Shown: positions 44,292-52,715 of the stretch, piece after piece
Layout of the letters: each line of letters starts with the position of its first letter
Position numbering within the stretch: position 1 is the first letter of the stretch
Assembly: GCF_023272795.1 (NCBI RefSeq)
Contig: NZ_CP096829.1
Span: 3,782,001-3,846,000, forward strand
From: Flavobacterium humidisoli
Lineage (GTDB): Bacteria; Bacteroidota; Bacteroidia; Flavobacteriales; Flavobacteriaceae
DNA length: 64,000 nt
Direction: 5' to 3'
Position numbers and translations under genes: made by a program
The notes under the pieces: model-generated
Told to the model about the DNA's origin: nothing
The model's database searches: none
What the model saw: the letters and a program-made list of their open reading frames with translations, nothing else

Positions 44292-44415
44292 TTTGATTGA
44301 TTTTGTTGTACAAGATTAATTCATAAAAGAAAGCACTGTTTTCGAAAACATTCAAACGGCTCTATAAGCTTCTCAAAAGCATTTGGCAATTCGATATTTG
44401 TTCTATCTTTATCTT

Positions 44416-46056
44416 ATGTATAAATCTTACTTTTTTATCATTTTACTTCTTCTAATGTTTACCTCGTGTAACTATTACAAAGAGTACGTTACAACCGATG
44501 TAACCTATGATGTTGATTACGATCATCAGAAGATGGATTGGGGTAAATCGGATAGTTCGAGTTTTAGATTCCAAACAGATGTTGAAATACAAAAACGAAA
44601 AGACACTTCTCAATCGTTAGGGCTTCAGATAAATGCCTTTGGTGCTTTTGATGTGTATTGGGATGGAGTTTTGATTGGGAGAAATGGTCAAATGGCAAAA
44701 TCAGATCGTGTTGAGGTGCCAGGAACAGAAACATCTTATTATCAAATACCTAATAATTTGTCTAAATTGGGCAAACACACTGTTGTTTTAATTGGTTCAC
44801 AGACCTACAATAGAGAAGCTGAGCGCGGTATTGATGTAAAACTTAAAGATTATCTGCTGCTTCATCGTTCACCGCTTATCGTGGTTTCTTTTATGAATAT
44901 TATGGCAGGTGCTTTCCTTATTGCAGGCATCTACTATTTTTTTTTATATCTAAATAGTACTCGAAAAGAACTAGCAGTTTTGCTTTTCGGAATTATTTGC
45001 CTGCTTTTCTTTTGTCTGCTAATTATCGAATATGTCAAGTATTATTTAGAAATTCCTTATAATGAATTTTATACTCGTTTAAAGATTATTGGCTGGCTTA
45101 CTTTTGCTATTTCAATGCTCGTGCCGTGGTATTTTATGTTACAGTTTGAATTTAAAAGAAAGAAACTAGTGCTGCTTTTTTTGTTCATTGTCCTTTTAGC
45201 AATTTATATTGGCTATTATGGTCATTATGATATTTCGGCAGCCTATTTTACTATAACTGCCCGTTTCTTTTCTATTGTAATCGCTATTGAAGCCGCCATT
45301 AGAAAAGCAAAAGGCGGACTTATAGTTGCAGTTGGTTTATTGGCAGGAGTAGTGGTCAATTATTTTATGTTTTATGACTTCGGATTGTTTATTGCTTTTA
45401 CCATTTTGGTGCTTTGCATGCTCTATCTCCATACCATACGGACAAAGGCAATGGAAGAAGCTCATAATGCATCATTGCTGCTTTCTTCAAGATTGCAATT
45501 AGAATTGATCAAGAAAAATATTCAGCCGCATTTTCTTCGAAATACTTTAACCTCGCTGATCGATTGGATTGAAGAATCGCCTAAAGAAGGGGTTGTTTTT
45601 ATTCGCGCTCTAGCGGAAGAATTTGATATAATGAATGATATTGCCGAAGACACACTTATTCCAATCAGACAAGAAATTGATTTGTGCAGAAGACATTTAG
45701 AAGTAATGTCTTTTCGTAAAGAAATTTGTTATGAATGGCAAGAAGAGGGAATTGAGGAAAATGAAACGATTCCGCCTGCTATTTTTCATACCATTATAGA
45801 AAACGGAATTACACATAGTCTTCCTCCAGAACAAGGTTGTATTGTTTTTTGTTTGAAATTCGTCAAAGAGAAGCAATTCAAACAATACACTTTATTGACT
45901 TTTGCTAAAAATCGTCAAGCGAAAAAAGACAAGCGAATAGGAACGGGATTTAAATACATTGAAGCTAGATTAACAGAAAGTTACGGTACCAATTGGTCTT
46001 TCGATTCTCATGCTGTAGAAAAAGGGTGGGAAACCATCATTAAAATTTTGGATTAA
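44416..46056 (+). CDS. LytS-type sensor histidine kinase
   Basis: The ATG at 44416 is preferred; a TTG 33 bp upstream is in frame but has no support. The 546 residues have a lipobox-like FTSC at about 17-20, a 7TM-like membrane region, and a His_kinase domain with NIQPHFLRNTLTSLIDWIEE, where His is the phosphate site. The N box is IIENGITHSLPPEQG. Its stop is 1 bp from the response regulator. The signal is unknown; the nearest divergent gene is a TonB-type receptor. Confidence 0.85.
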   Translation: MYKSYFFIILLLLMFTSCNYYKEYVTTDVTYDVDYDHQKMDWGKSDSSSFRFQTDVEIQKRKDTSQSLGLQINAFGAFDVYWDGVLIGRNGQMAKSDRVEVPGTETSYYQIPNNLSKLGKHTVVLIGSQTYNREAERGIDVKLKDYLLLHRSPLIVVSFMNIMAGAFLIAGIYYFFLYLNSTRKELAVLLFGIICLLFFCLLIIEYVKYYLEIPYNEFYTRLKIIGWLTFAISMLVPWYFMLQFEFKRKKLVLLFLFIVLLAIYIGYYGHYDISAAYFTITARFFSIVIAIEAAIRKAKGGLIVAVGLLAGVVVNYFMFYDFGLFIAFTILVLCMLYLHTIRTKAMEEAHNASLLLSSRLQLELIKKNIQPHFLRNTLTSLIDWIEESPKEGVVFIRALAEEFDIMNDIAEDTLIPIRQEIDLCRRHLEVMSFRKEICYEWQEEGIEENETIPPAIFHTIIENGITHSLPPEQGCIVFCLKFVKEKQFKQYTLLTFAKNRQAKKDKRIGTGFKYIEARLTESYGTNWSFDSHAVEKGWETIIKILD

Positions 46057-46057
46057 A

Positions 46058-46753
46058 ATGAAAATACTCATAATTGAAGATGAAGCTCGTATTGCCAAAA
46101 GAGTAGAAAGAATGACGCGTGATTTCTTTGACAAAGACGTGCAAATTCTGCTTTCTGATTCTCTTGAAAACGGACTTTCGGTTATTGAAAATAATCCAAT
46201 CGATCTTCTGCTTCTAGATTTAAATCTGAATGGAGAAGATGGATTTGAAATCTTGCAGACTTTTGTGGCGGGTTCCTTTCAGACCATTATTATTTCTGCC
46301 TATACCGATAAAGCTATTACTGCCTTCAATTATGGAGTTTTGGATTTTGTACCCAAACCTTTCGATCAAAATAGATTGGAGCAAGCCTTTACGCGTTATA
46401 CCACACAGGGAAAACAATCGGGTGGAGATGTTCGTTTTTTGGCGGTAAGAAAAGCAAAGACGTTCAGACTTGTGCCTGTTAATGAGATTTTATATATTAA
46501 AGGAGCAGGGATTTATACCGAATTACATTTGGCCAATAACAAAATAGAATTACACGATAAATCACTTGAAGCTTTAGAAAAACTGCTTCCTGAAACATTT
46601 GAAAGAATACATAAATCGTATATTTTATGTTGGGAGCAAGCAGACAAAATTGTGGTAGAAGCAGGAGGAAAGTACAGTATGCAACTTAAAAATGGTGATT
46701 TATTGCCAATTGGACGTTCTAAGTATAAAGAGATTAAGAATAAACTGCTATAG
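46058..46753 (+). CDS. LytTR response regulator
   Basis: The 231 residues have a receiver domain with phosphoacceptor D54 in LLLLDLNLNGEDG and the conserved Lys in VPKPFD (about 107). The LytTR DNA-binding domain (about 130-231) has FLAVRKAKTFRLVPVNEILYIKG and ERIHKSYILCWEQAD. It forms a two-component pair with the kinase directly upstream. Confidence 0.9.
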   Translation: MKILIIEDEARIAKRVERMTRDFFDKDVQILLSDSLENGLSVIENNPIDLLLLDLNLNGEDGFEILQTFVAGSFQTIIISAYTDKAITAFNYGVLDFVPKPFDQNRLEQAFTRYTTQGKQSGGDVRFLAVRKAKTFRLVPVNEILYIKGAGIYTELHLANNKIELHDKSLEALEKLLPETFERIHKSYILCWEQADKIVVEAGGKYSMQLKNGDLLPIGRSKYKEIKNKLL

Positions 46754-49477: not shown

Positions 49478-51028
49478 ATGGTACAATTAGTTCAAAAGTA
49501 TTTAAGTATAAATAATTATAAAGATCAAACAGAAGAATTTGAAGACCTATTTCAGTCTCATCCTGATTATCCCAGCTTATTTGCCATTACCGATACTTTT
49601 GATTTATTATCCATAGAAAATGTAGCTGTAAGAATTCAAAAAGAGCAATTATCTGAATTGCCAGATTCTTTTTTGGCTGTATACAAACAAAATATAGTGT
49701 TGGCAACTCAAAAAGAAGAAACAATAACTATTGAGTCAGAAGAGGAAGGAAAAAAGGTTTTACTACTTGATGATTTTGTCCAAGACTGGGATGGAATTGT
49801 AGCAGTTATTGAACCAAATGAAACTCCAAAATCAGCAAGCTTTAAGACAACTTCAAATTGGCATTATTATGCTTTAGCAATTCTTGCTTTGGTAATTGTT
49901 TCGTTTTTTTATAATAGTTATGGCATTAGCGAAATTTTGTTGCTCTTAACCTCAATTGCAGGCCTTGTTTTCAGCGTTTTTATAGTTCAAGAAAAACTAG
50001 GTGTTAAAAACGAAATGGTATCTAAATTTTGCAGTATGAGTCCTAGCGCATCATGTGACTCTGTAATTGGCTCCAATAAAGGAGAGATTAATAAATGGAT
50101 TAATTTCGCAGATTTGCCTGTTCTTTTTTTCGGTGTTAATTTACTTGCGGTACTAGCAAATCCTTCTGGGTCAAGTGTTGTAATTGGATTTTTAAGTTTA
50201 TTATCTCTCCCTGTAATTGCTTATTCTATTTATATACAAAAATGGCAGCTTAAAAAATGGTGCTTATTATGTTTGACAGTTTCCGCCATTATAATTCTTC
50301 AAAGTGCTGTTTGGGTTTTTATGATGCAACCATTTGTTTATAATGTATCTAGTCTTTTTCCTTATTTGTTTTCGTTAATATTAATTGTTAGCTCTTGGTT
50401 AGCTATAAAACCTATTTTAACAGGTAAAATGAAAGCAGAAGAAGAGGTAAACAAATTGAAAAAATTTAAAAGAAATTTCGGGGTGTTAAATTCATTGACC
50501 AAAGAGATTCCAGTTTTGGCTGGTTTTAATAAACTAGAGGGGCTTCAGTTTGGTAAAATTGATGCTGATGTAGAACTTTTAATTATTTTAAGTCCAAGTT
50601 GCGGGTATTGCCACAAGGCTTTTGCAGAATCTATGGAATTAATAAATAGATATCCAGAAAAAGTATCTCTTAAAGTTTTATTCAATATTAATCCTGATAA
50701 TACGAACAATCCATATAAAATTGTTGTAGATCAATTATTGGAAATTAATAACAAAAATAAGGATTCGGTTTTAGAAGCAATTTCAGATTGGCACATAAAA
50801 AAGATCGGACTGGATAAATGGTTAGAGAAATGGAATTCAGGTTCGATTAGTATGAAAATAAATCAACAAGTAGAATTGCAATACGATTGGTGTCGTGAAA
50901 ATAAATTTAATTATACGCCAGTGAAAATTGTAAATAATGAAATCTTTCCTCATGAATATGAAATAAGTGATTTAAGATACTTTTTAGGTGATTTTTCAGA
51001 AGCAAAAAGTTTAAGAAAAGTAGTTTGA
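49478..51028 (+). CDS. C39-like/VKOR/thioredoxin fusion oxidase
   Basis: The 516 residues combine three parts. Residues 1-115 look like an inactive peptidase C39 domain (HPDYPSLFAITDTFDLL, LLDDFVQDWDGIVAVIE) without the catalytic Cys. Residues 130-310 are the VKOR membrane part with all four cysteines: C185 and C193 in the loop, C262 and C265 in WCLLC. Residues 330-516 are a thioredoxin domain with SCGYC (C375, C378). Such a protein can take electrons from protein thiols to quinone and so form disulfides in secreted peptides. The next gene encodes a six-Cys, double-glycine peptide, the obvious client. Confidence 0.88.
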   Translation: MVQLVQKYLSINNYKDQTEEFEDLFQSHPDYPSLFAITDTFDLLSIENVAVRIQKEQLSELPDSFLAVYKQNIVLATQKEETITIESEEEGKKVLLLDDFVQDWDGIVAVIEPNETPKSASFKTTSNWHYYALAILALVIVSFFYNSYGISEILLLLTSIAGLVFSVFIVQEKLGVKNEMVSKFCSMSPSASCDSVIGSNKGEINKWINFADLPVLFFGVNLLAVLANPSGSSVVIGFLSLLSLPVIAYSIYIQKWQLKKWCLLCLTVSAIIILQSAVWVFMMQPFVYNVSSLFPYLFSLILIVSSWLAIKPILTGKMKAEEEVNKLKKFKRNFGVLNSLTKEIPVLAGFNKLEGLQFGKIDADVELLIILSPSCGYCHKAFAESMELINRYPEKVSLKVLFNINPDNTNNPYKIVVDQLLEINNKNKDSVLEAISDWHIKKIGLDKWLEKWNSGSISMKINQQVELQYDWCRENKFNYTPVKIVNNEIFPHEYEISDLRYFLGDFSEAKSLRKVV

Positions 51029-51052
51029 TAGTATTATAAAAATATATAAAAA

Positions 51053-51068
51053 ATTCTTGCGCAAGAAT
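51053..51068. promoter_or_regulatory. Perfect 16-bp palindrome upstream of the peptide gene
   Basis: ATTCTTGCGCAAGAAT is fully self-complementary, 65 bp before the peptide ATG and 24 bp after the oxidase stop. It could be an operator or a hairpin with a minimal loop. AGACA (51069-51073) and TGTCT (51085-51089) form a second small stem just after. Confidence 0.5.
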
Positions 51069-51132
51069 AGACATAAACTTCAAGTGTCTTTAAGCAGATT
51101 GAAGTATTAACTAATATTAAAAACTATATACT

Positions 51133-51318
51133 ATGTTAAAAAACATTTTAAAGTTAGACGGCGTTGCTGAACTAACTAAAACTGAAAAAAGAAGTGTTAA
51201 AGGAGGTTTGGCTTGTGTTGACGGAGTATGTCCAAAACCAGGTAATTATTGTTGTCCTCCTTATCCAGATACAGAAGAACAGCTTTGCAGACTAATTGGC
51301 ACAAGTTGTCCAGGTTAA
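51133..51318 (+). CDS. Double-glycine leader peptide with six cysteines
   Basis: The 61 residues have the GG-leader form MLKNILKLDGVAELTKTEKR then SVKGG, with the double glycine at 24-25. Cleavage there gives a 36-residue peptide with Cys at 28, 33, 40, 41, 52 and 59 of the precursor, enough for three disulfides, and several Pro and Gly. It is therefore a bacteriocin-like or signalling peptide precursor of the Bacteroidota GG type. No C39 ABC exporter is in the window. The VKOR-thioredoxin protein just upstream could oxidise it. The mature activity is unknown. Confidence 0.85.
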   Translation: MLKNILKLDGVAELTKTEKRSVKGGLACVDGVCPKPGNYCCPPYPDTEEQLCRLIGTSCPG

Positions 51319-51410
51319 GAATTTCATATTCTGTTATATTTCAGATTAGGTGCTTTAACGTGACATAATATAACTATCGAAAAAAGAATTTCTAACATTA
51401 GAATATTAGA

Positions 51411-51439
51411 AGAGACTGTTTAGGCAGTCTCTTTTTTTT
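51411..51439 (+). terminator. Intrinsic terminator after the peptide gene
   Basis: AGAGACTG (51411-51418) pairs with CAGTCTCT (51425-51432) and is followed by seven T. It separates the peptide gene from 51573. Confidence 0.85.
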
Positions 51440-51572
51440 GTTTTAAAAAGTTTTGGCAAAGTACTGAAAACAGAAAATATCTTGACTTAAAAATATATTT
51501 TTAGTAGAAATAAATATACATTAGCTTAAAAAAACATTACAAACTACAATCATTCTTCACTGAAATATTTTA

Positions 51573-52715
51573 ATGAAAAAATACGCATTAGCATTTTGTT
51601 TTGTATTACTATCGGTTTGCATTTTTGCTCAGGAAAACCAAGTTCCAGCCATAAAAATATATTTGGAAGATGCAGAAAATGGTAAAAATGTGAAGGATGC
51701 AAAAGTTACTCTTGAGGGTTTTGGGCTTCCAGATATTACTGCAGAGTATAATAAGAAAGATAAAAGTTATTATTTTAATGAAATTCCATTAAGGTATAAT
51801 ACCGTCATGACTTATCATGAAAAATACAACGAAAAAGGTTTTCAGAATGTAGAAGGATTACCAAACGAATTGAAATTCAGGCTCTTCAAACCAATTAAGG
51901 TGTCTTATGGATTTGAGTTTTTCTGGTTTCACTATTTTCCAGAGAAAAGTTATGTCGAAGATCCTTATAAACTGAGTATTTCATTGAATGATAATGATAT
52001 GAATTATAATTCTTTGAGAGCATATATCAGCAAAAAAATTAAAGAGTTAAACCTTGAAATGGAATTGGTAAATCCTTTTTGGGAAGAAAGTAAAATAATG
52101 AAGTATAGCTTAACTTTTCCAAACCAAAAAGAAGCTTATCCTTTGCTTAGTTCAAAGAATACCAATGTCATAGATCATGAATATGTTTTTCCGTTAAAAG
52201 GAGGCGTAAGTTCTATTTTTCCAGAGCGAGAATATTCTAATACATCCAAGGATATTTGTTTTATTGTGCGAAAAAAAGATGGTTCAAAATTTAAACGATT
52301 TAATGATCCTATAATTAAAAAGTTGAAAGAAGAAAATTTTAATGTTTCCGCGATTGTTTTAAATAAAATAACAGGATACGACAACGCACGCACAAAATTA
52401 GAAAAGAGAGATAGGTTTAGTAAAAAGTTTAACTTAAAACACGATGTAGATTCATCAAAGGTTTTCTTTTATAATTTATACAACCAAAAGCCTATAAGGT
52501 TGTTTTTTTGGAAACGCAGATCACGAGTTAGCATCATGGAACCAGATCAGTTTCCTCAACTTCCTTTGTTTTTTCTTATATCAAATGATAATTTAGATAT
52601 TCCAGAATATAGACCGAATACAGAAGGAGTGGAGTTTCAGAAAATTCCCATTCAAGATAAAGCATTAGGTCTTGGAATATTAGATCAATATGGATATTAT
52701 CTCAATGCAAAATAA
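51573..52715 (+). CDS. Secreted protein of unknown family
   Basis: The 380 residues have a signal peptide ending FAQ. The first 75 residues resemble a beta-sandwich repeat (AIKIYLEDAENGKNVKDAKVTLEG), a little like a carboxypeptidase-regulatory or bacterial Ig type. The rest is a mixed, aromatic-rich region with no catalytic motif I know. A terminator divides it from the peptide gene, so any link to that pair is only by neighbourhood. Confidence 0.6.
   Translation: MKKYALAFCFVLLSVCIFAQENQVPAIKIYLEDAENGKNVKDAKVTLEGFGLPDITAEYNKKDKSYYFNEIPLRYNTVMTYHEKYNEKGFQNVEGLPNELKFRLFKPIKVSYGFEFFWFHYFPEKSYVEDPYKLSISLNDNDMNYNSLRAYISKKIKELNLEMELVNPFWEESKIMKYSLTFPNQKEAYPLLSSKNTNVIDHEYVFPLKGGVSSIFPEREYSNTSKDICFIVRKKDGSKFKRFNDPIIKKLKEENFNVSAIVLNKITGYDNARTKLEKRDRFSKKFNLKHDVDSSKVFFYNLYNQKPIRLFFWKRRSRVSIMEPDQFPQLPLFFLISNDNLDIPEYRPNTEGVEFQKIPIQDKALGLGILDQYGYYLNAK

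Follow-up and report, generated by a model that had tools for sequence, protein, structure and literature searches.

Does a predicted membrane disulfide oxidase serve the small cysteine-rich peptide encoded directly after it, and how would the peptide leave the cell when no exporter lies beside the pair? The question is raised by two genes in the window, meaning here the whole stretch of 64,000 nucleotides that was analysed, which belongs to a genome consisting of a single contig of 5.64 Mb. The first gene (49478..51028, forward strand) encodes a predicted membrane disulfide oxidase of 516 aa, composed of a dead C39-like domain, an extra transmembrane (TM) helix, a VKOR core and a DsbA-like domain. 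After a gap of 105 bp follows an open reading frame for a precursor peptide of 61 aa with a double-glycine (GG) leader (51133..51318, forward strand), which was divided into a leader of 25 aa (51133-51207) and a mature part of 36 aa with six cysteines (51208-51315). An intrinsic-terminator-like hairpin on the same strand (51408..51435), kept in two syntenic relatives, ends the two-gene unit. A sequence-only reading of the locus had described the four VKOR cysteines and the SCGYC site, a C39-like N-domain without the catalytic Cys, the six-Cys GG peptide as the next gene and the absence of an adjacent exporter, and these descriptions were borne out by the analysis given below; it had further suggested a dedicated disulfide former and had set conservation of the pair elsewhere as a test.

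Using the C39 profile, the oxidase itself was the sole match in the whole window, and relatives of C39-ABC or HlyD proteins could be found on neither strand of a 19-kb stretch around the pair (L004). Searches with PHROGs and PADLOC gave no match, and the peptide had no match in Pfam and NCBIfam. A 380-aa protein encoded at 51573-52715 was considered as a further member of the unit and excluded; no match to it adjoins the pair in strain ACN2. About 2.7 kb upstream, at 44383-46753, lie two genes that are syntenic in two relatives and that, judged by eye, resemble a histidine kinase of the membrane and a regulator of LytTR type; they are a possible regulator.

The domain architecture of the oxidase was assessed by profile and structural comparison. 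Pfam VKOR (PF07884) was matched at residues 154-277 with 53.9 bits against a cut-off of 27.5 (E 2.7e-14), which places the protein in this family, and structural matches of the VKOR core reached Z scores of 12.6-13.7. The core carries C185, C193 and C262-X-X-C265, and the DsbA/ScsC-like thioredoxin domain (50495..51025, forward strand, assigned by structural match) carries the thioredoxin-type site C375-G-Y-C378 (SCGYC); all six cysteines were invariant in an alignment of 70 oxidases. Residues 343-510 showed a thioredoxin fold with a helical insert and the CXXC motif (Z 17.4 to Proteus ScsC) and could be assigned to the DsbA-like proteins, with ScsC and BdbD as the closest structures; Pfam Thioredoxin_4 matched under its cut-off (E 0.0084). 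A seventh, nearly invariant cysteine, C472, lies in this domain nine residues before the conserved Pro481. Sequence searches against solved structures were convincing for the VKOR and thioredoxin parts only when the family profile was used.

Residues 1-117 (49478..49828, forward strand) were assigned as a degenerate C39 domain from a fold match on a low-confidence model and a weak profile alignment. Pfam Peptidase_C39 was matched at residues 18-115 with 23.2 bits, just over the cut-off of 22 (E 6.5e-5). The fold matches, with Z scores of 10.4 for PCAT1 (8vp9), 10.1 for LahT (6mpz), 9.9 for HlyB and 8.8 for the C39-like structure 3zua, rest on a stand-alone model of low confidence (pLDDT 56), and sequence likeness to the C39 domains of exporters was weak (hhalign E 8e-4, probability 24%). 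The catalytic Cys-His-Asp of peptidase C39 could not be found in the N-domain. The protein begins past the Cys position, residue 1 aligning one position after Cys27 of LahT, and in a weak profile alignment, where the catalytic residues were assigned by analogy with LahT, the presumed His and Asp columns are occupied by N72 and S87. Residue 1 presumably also falls after the corresponding catalytic sites of PCAT1 and ComA.

The window leader has Val at -4 and Leu at -12 and conforms to the double-glycine class II type. Leaders of 25 aa were found in 258 of 274 family peptides, with I/V/M/L at -4 in 253 and L/I/V/M at -12 in 257; at -7, the window peptide has Lys and the family mostly Gln. In the accessible text of the LahT study, Cys27 is the catalytic Cys, C39 domains bind leaders in a hydrophobic groove taking residues -4, -7 and -12, dead C39 domains recruit cargo, and Lys at the contact residue -7 impaired cleavage (PMC6363468). 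Because such a groove reads leaders and the family leaders are hydrophobic at -4 and -12, the dead C39 domain is, by analogy, probably a leader-docking module for the precursor, while the Lys at -7 speaks against a LahT-like fit at that position.

In an AlphaFold model (pLDDT 74, pTM 0.49), the N-domain is separated from the DsbA-like domain by six TM helices, and the same segment (residues 126-329; 49853..50464, forward strand) could be delimited from VKOR structural matches and charge analysis. The extra helix, TM0, comprises residues 126-145, and the VKOR core with its four cysteines comes after it. As the TM count is even, the N-domain and the DsbA-like domain should share one side of the membrane. 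Among 70 family members, the mean number of K+R was 7.7 in the two loops with the catalytic cysteines versus 1.0 in the three opposite loops, and the catalytic side was the richer one in 70/70 members from the genus and 20/20 from outside it, whereas VKORs of the phylum without a C39-like domain showed the reverse bias in 25/27. Positive charges opposite the cysteines, as in canonical VKORs, were thus not seen in the family. In the outside control set, L219, one of 30 loci, was left unparsed, and two proteins listed as phylum VKORs with a C39-like domain were the same genes as L251 and L262 and were counted once. Because of the positive-inside rule applied to this bias, the family is predicted to be inverted, with the catalytic cysteines, the dead C39 domain and the DsbA-like domain facing the cytoplasm. 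A hydrophobic TM0 window exceeded the threshold in 68/70 genus members, 17/20 members from outside and 2/27 controls, of which a few sit just under the threshold. The two controls with TM0 (L231 and L234) were exactly the two with inverted charge bias, though they lack the C39-like domain; L234 matches the family profile, yet without its N-domain. TM0 may be the simplest cause of the predicted inversion, and the charge bias points to leader-guided disulfide formation before export.

Relatives of the oxidase were present in 129/398 genomes of the genus and, using the family profile, in 40/299 genomes of the family, own genome included. In the usual layout, the oxidase gene comes before a C39-ABC exporter and between one and sixteen GG peptides, which are Cys-rich and hypervariable. 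In a first set of 72 oxidases from 62 loci, at least one GG peptide was found no more than 6 kb downstream in 58 cases, and an exporter no more than 7 kb away in 58; of the 61 that scored over 380 bits, 57 had the peptide and 49 a C39-ABC exporter downstream. The second set came from the 80 best named loci; of its 84 oxidases, 71 had a GG peptide and 73 an exporter, mostly with one to three peptides per locus and sixteen in the largest; the two sets overlap and are not additive. Outside the genus, 19 of 20 picked loci held a relative, and 17 of these listed a Cys-rich GG peptide and 13 an exporter; at least 3 Cys were required of these peptides, and their leaders differ from the genus type. 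The own genome has three C39-ABC exporters by the C39 profile, and its paralogous cassette at G000:C1:1.47 Mb (L003) consists of an oxidase of 48% identity, three small leader-type ORFs, a C39-ABC exporter and HlyD. Upstream of this paralogous oxidase, on the opposite strand (L003:7437-8346, reverse), five tandem Cys-free GG peptides could be seen (e.g. ..TIKGGDDPVIDPNNQNEPKKTGGNGNP).

No exporter was found in the examined stretch at 12 loci of the first set and, in the second set, at L119. Follow-up outside the window clade covered five of the exporter-less loci (L080, L086, L088, L100 and L107 being left out) and revealed an exporter further on in G231 and G195, a split one in G276 and one broken by a stop in G284; in G175 the contig ends inside the exporter. 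At L119 (Flavobacterium sp. ASV13), the peptide that comes after the RNA motif described below has 2 Cys and another type of leader.

The cysteine content of the peptides was evaluated on 267 distinct mature parts gathered in the genus without Cys as a criterion. They contained 2 (3 peptides), 3 (1), 4 (144), 5 (2), 6 (115) or 8 (2) cysteines, an even count in 264/267 peptides and 73/76 clusters, with 104 distinct Cys spacings among the family peptides. The peptides derived from the RNA motif, a set overlapping the 267, were even in 86/87. Parity was looser outside the genus, where parsing gave an even count for 38/44 listed peptides; only peptides with 3 or more Cys entered that search. At nine loci of oxidase-free C39-ABC exporters, which were chosen from existing match lists and not at random, 15 GG-like small ORFs all had 0-2 Cys; three of the loci gave no such ORF, and some of the 15 may be non-genes. 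The peptide regex overlooked real peptides at L113 and L119. The net charge was zero or negative in 237/267 mature peptides. Among eight relatives scanned with NCBIfam, the 'bacteriocin-like' leader model was hit by four, all under the cut-off, and TIGR04149 by one that barely exceeded its cut-off. That the peptide is a bacteriocin is a guess, and competition against related bacteria is our leading guess for the role of the product.

The test of conservation came out in favour of the pair, which was present in 4/4 clade species seen: besides the window, in Flavobacterium sp. ACN2, whose oxidase is the closest named relative found (95% identity), F. tyrosinilyticum (78%) and F. branchiicola (74%). 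The peptide frame C-x4-C-x6-CC-x(7-10)-CRL-x-G-x2-C is constant across the four species, and the loop after CC is variable. Gene order as in the window is common to ACN2 and F. tyrosinilyticum, not F. branchiicola. Between F. tyrosinilyticum and the window, the flanks are mostly about 92% identical and much of the oxidase 76-81%, a sequence pattern that suggests allelic replacement or fast divergence of the oxidase. C39-ABC and HlyD relatives were absent from both strands over 17.5-19 kb at each of the four clade loci, and a complete cassette occurs elsewhere in each of the four genomes (L003, L097, L166 and L155). The pair is thus more than chance, given its presence in 4/4 clade species and the Cys-rich GG peptides after most relatives, and it represents a branch without an exporter in a family whose members are mostly linked to one. 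As to the dedicated disulfide former, the sequence data argue well for it through the pairing, the even Cys counts and the Cys-poor peptides at oxidase-free exporters. The exporter-less branch, the predicted cytoplasmic catalysis and the probable leader docking by the dead C39 domain had been overlooked in the earlier reading.

The gap between the two genes contains a 16-bp perfect palindrome, ATTCTTGCGCAAGAAT (51053..51068, forward strand), identical in two syntenic relatives and without another exact copy in the genome. A copy with two mismatches lies at the same position before an orphan peptide at G000:C1:2132980. Directly after the palindrome, upstream of the peptide start, a covarying 5'-UTR H-type pseudoknot could be predicted (51069..51105, forward strand; P1 51069-51073/51085-51089, P2 51077-51083/51099-51105). 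Full P1+P2 pairing in fixed geometry was obtained in 93/296 peptide upstreams, against a mean of 21.9 (max 29) in chimeras of different upstreams and 3.6 (max 6) in shuffles; about two thirds of the upstreams fail this strict test. Alignment A5 comprises the first 48 of 66 distinct types, with two removed by eye, and was chosen for pairing; its pair counts are not independent evidence of the pseudoknot, and the chimera test is.

A covariance model of the P2 stem gave good scores for the window and for an orphan gene at 2.13 Mb that encodes a 4-Cys peptide. The match at a third gene of the leader type (3.99 Mb) was weak (E 0.028 in 147.5 kb), and both stems there differ by paired changes; this site is missing from the whole-genome list (E up to 0.1), which contains a coding match of E 0.018. 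Two matches of E ~0.018 in a coding frame, which we take to be GAPDH-like, were treated as noise. In the own genome, the motif was located at 51069-51105, L015:6993-7045 and, weakly, L016:7689-7741. The gene at L015:7060-7245 (G000:C1:2133060) is a stand-alone 4-Cys leader peptide gene with no oxidase or exporter adjoining, related to array peptides of other species. The model gave no match at the paralogous cassette L003, and the motif was present at all four clade loci. Across five whole genomes, each of the 25 matches with E <1e-4 has a small ORF after it, and 24 of these ORFs are of the leader type, although many of the 25 sites belonged to the training set. In 80 loci, 92/92 matches lay on the oxidase strand. 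For 87 of them, the small ORF that comes next has a GG-type site, although not every case was inspected, and the other 5 lie before ORFs with the same leader and a degenerate site. Loci outside the genus gave 17 matches with E up to 0.1. One match, G157:C1:3584993, was left uninspected. At L281 (G386:C6:398760), the motif is also found ahead of a different type of small ORF, which is acidic and free of Cys. A Rfam scan of 50900-51500 gave seven matches up to E 10, none near the gathering score. Control of translation is our guess for the role of the pseudoknot.

We consider it fairly probable that the pair is a two-gene unit for the oxidative maturation of a secreted peptide. The 25-residue leader would dock on the dead C39 domain of the oxidase, and the DsbA-like domain would hand disulfides to the six peptide cysteines. 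The electron flow we infer would continue to the VKOR core, which would reoxidise the DsbA-like domain and reduce quinone. With TM0 bringing the number of TM segments to six, both soluble domains and the VKOR cysteines would be cytoplasmic, and the disulfides would be formed ahead of export. Cleavage at the GG site and export of the peptide would fall to a C39-ABC exporter from another locus, for which the cassette at G000:C1:1.47 Mb is the most likely source, and the 5'-UTR pseudoknot would control synthesis of the peptide. Export in trans is likely because a complete cassette is present elsewhere in the same genome; counting against it, the connection is the shared leader type, and there are three C39-ABC exporters in the genome. 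The only role of the bonds may be in stability, since linear synthetic bacteroidetocins are active according to the accessible text of their description (PMC6671954). A wider proposal, which we regard as evenly poised, is that the family is an inverted VKOR-DsbA fusion with a GG-reading dead C39 domain, that it bonds a conotoxin-like hypervariable repertoire in the cytoplasm, that a new pseudoknot joins orphan peptides in a regulon, and that the window pair is an exporter-less satellite.

In the conventional topology, the oxidase would be periplasmic and would oxidise peptides as the exporter releases them, like DsbA/VKOR systems. Bacteria normally form disulfides outside the cytoplasm, known VKOR-Trx systems are extracytoplasmic, which favours this arrangement, and the accessory thioredoxins of Gram-positive class II bacteriocins can be likened to it. 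The DsbA-like domain is closest to the extracytoplasmic ScsC and BdbD. The cytoplasm is reducing, which counts against bond formation there, and the dependence of the predicted topology on the positive-inside rule would also weigh against cytoplasmic oxidation. Also in favour of a periplasmic oxidase, bacteroidetocin loci, as far as the accessible text goes, combine a thiol oxidoreductase with a C39-ABC exporter (PMC6671954). A periplasmic oxidase is nevertheless unlikely: the charge bias is opposite in 90/90 proteins with the control as expected in 25/27, and the C39-like domain, some 125 residues long, would need to reach the periplasm without a visible signal peptide.

Loss of the exporter from a former cassette would make the window pair a decaying remnant, and broken or interrupted exporters in the related loci G284 and G276, together with the lack of an exporter near the pair, are in line with this. 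We find such decay improbable, as both ORFs are intact in four species, the six Cys are kept while the mature loop varies, and the UTR motif is found in all four clade loci and the terminator in the three compared. The oxidase could also serve the cell at large, as a thiol oxidase or isomerase of general function, with the peptide as an incidental neighbour; only the two C39-fused VKORs exceed the PF07884 cut-off in the genome, so wider duties are conceivable. The patchy distribution (129/398 genomes), the linkage to Cys-rich peptides and exporters and the presence of a leader-binding-type domain make this very improbable. Leader-directed oxidation by a dedicated enzyme is the reading we prefer. 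If the predicted topology holds, disulfide formation directed by a leader in the cytoplasm would have a natural example in bacteria, and a dead peptidase domain would have found new use in reading substrates. The origin of the disulfides in some Bacteroidota peptides would be explained, the oxidase and the RNA motif would offer a mining handle for a large unnamed peptide repertoire, and the enzyme could be a tool to make disulfide-rich peptides inside E. coli.

The general idea of an oxidoreductase with a GG peptide and an exporter is already known from the bacteroidetocins (class IIf). In the accessible text on these Bacteroidota GG-leader peptides, A and B have four Cys, the loci contain a C39-ABC exporter, and toxin activity is attenuated when a thiol oxidoreductase of the locus is deleted; the authors propose that this oxidoreductase forms the disulfides (PMC6671954). 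By the same text, their leaders have 15-16 aa and the mature parts of the five most alike have 42-48 aa, so that the window peptide, with 25 and 36 aa, falls outside class IIf; C has an uneven Cys number, the TM protein and the oxidoreductase are separate, and no C39-like/VKOR/DsbA fusion is described. The CLD of HlyB (3zua) resembles the N-domain as a C39 fold without the catalytic Cys and recruits the export substrate, as stated in the accessible text of PMC6363468. It is fused to an ABC exporter, whereas the present domain is fused to an oxidase. The open-licence PMC literature yielded no paper joining VKOR to GG-leader peptides, which does not prove absence. The VKOR-Trx and DsbB-DsbA pathways share the VKOR fold, the four catalytic Cys and a DsbA-like partner, to which the oxidase adds TM0, a reversed charge bias, the dead C39-like domain and the link to leader peptides. 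The VKOR of Aeropyrum pernix reportedly acts in two compartments, a result ascribed to Hibender in 2017. To our knowledge, no leader-docking domain or dedicated peptide substrate is known for this enzyme or for the VKOR of CyDisCo. The latter is an inverted VKOR, according to the accessible text of PMC5471842, and both enzymes are alike to the present one in being placed for cytoplasmic disulfides; the former is archaeal and the latter engineered. As far as the literature search reaches, the novelty lies in the fusion of the oxidase to a dead domain that reads leaders, in its predicted inversion, in the peptide arrays and in the RNA element.
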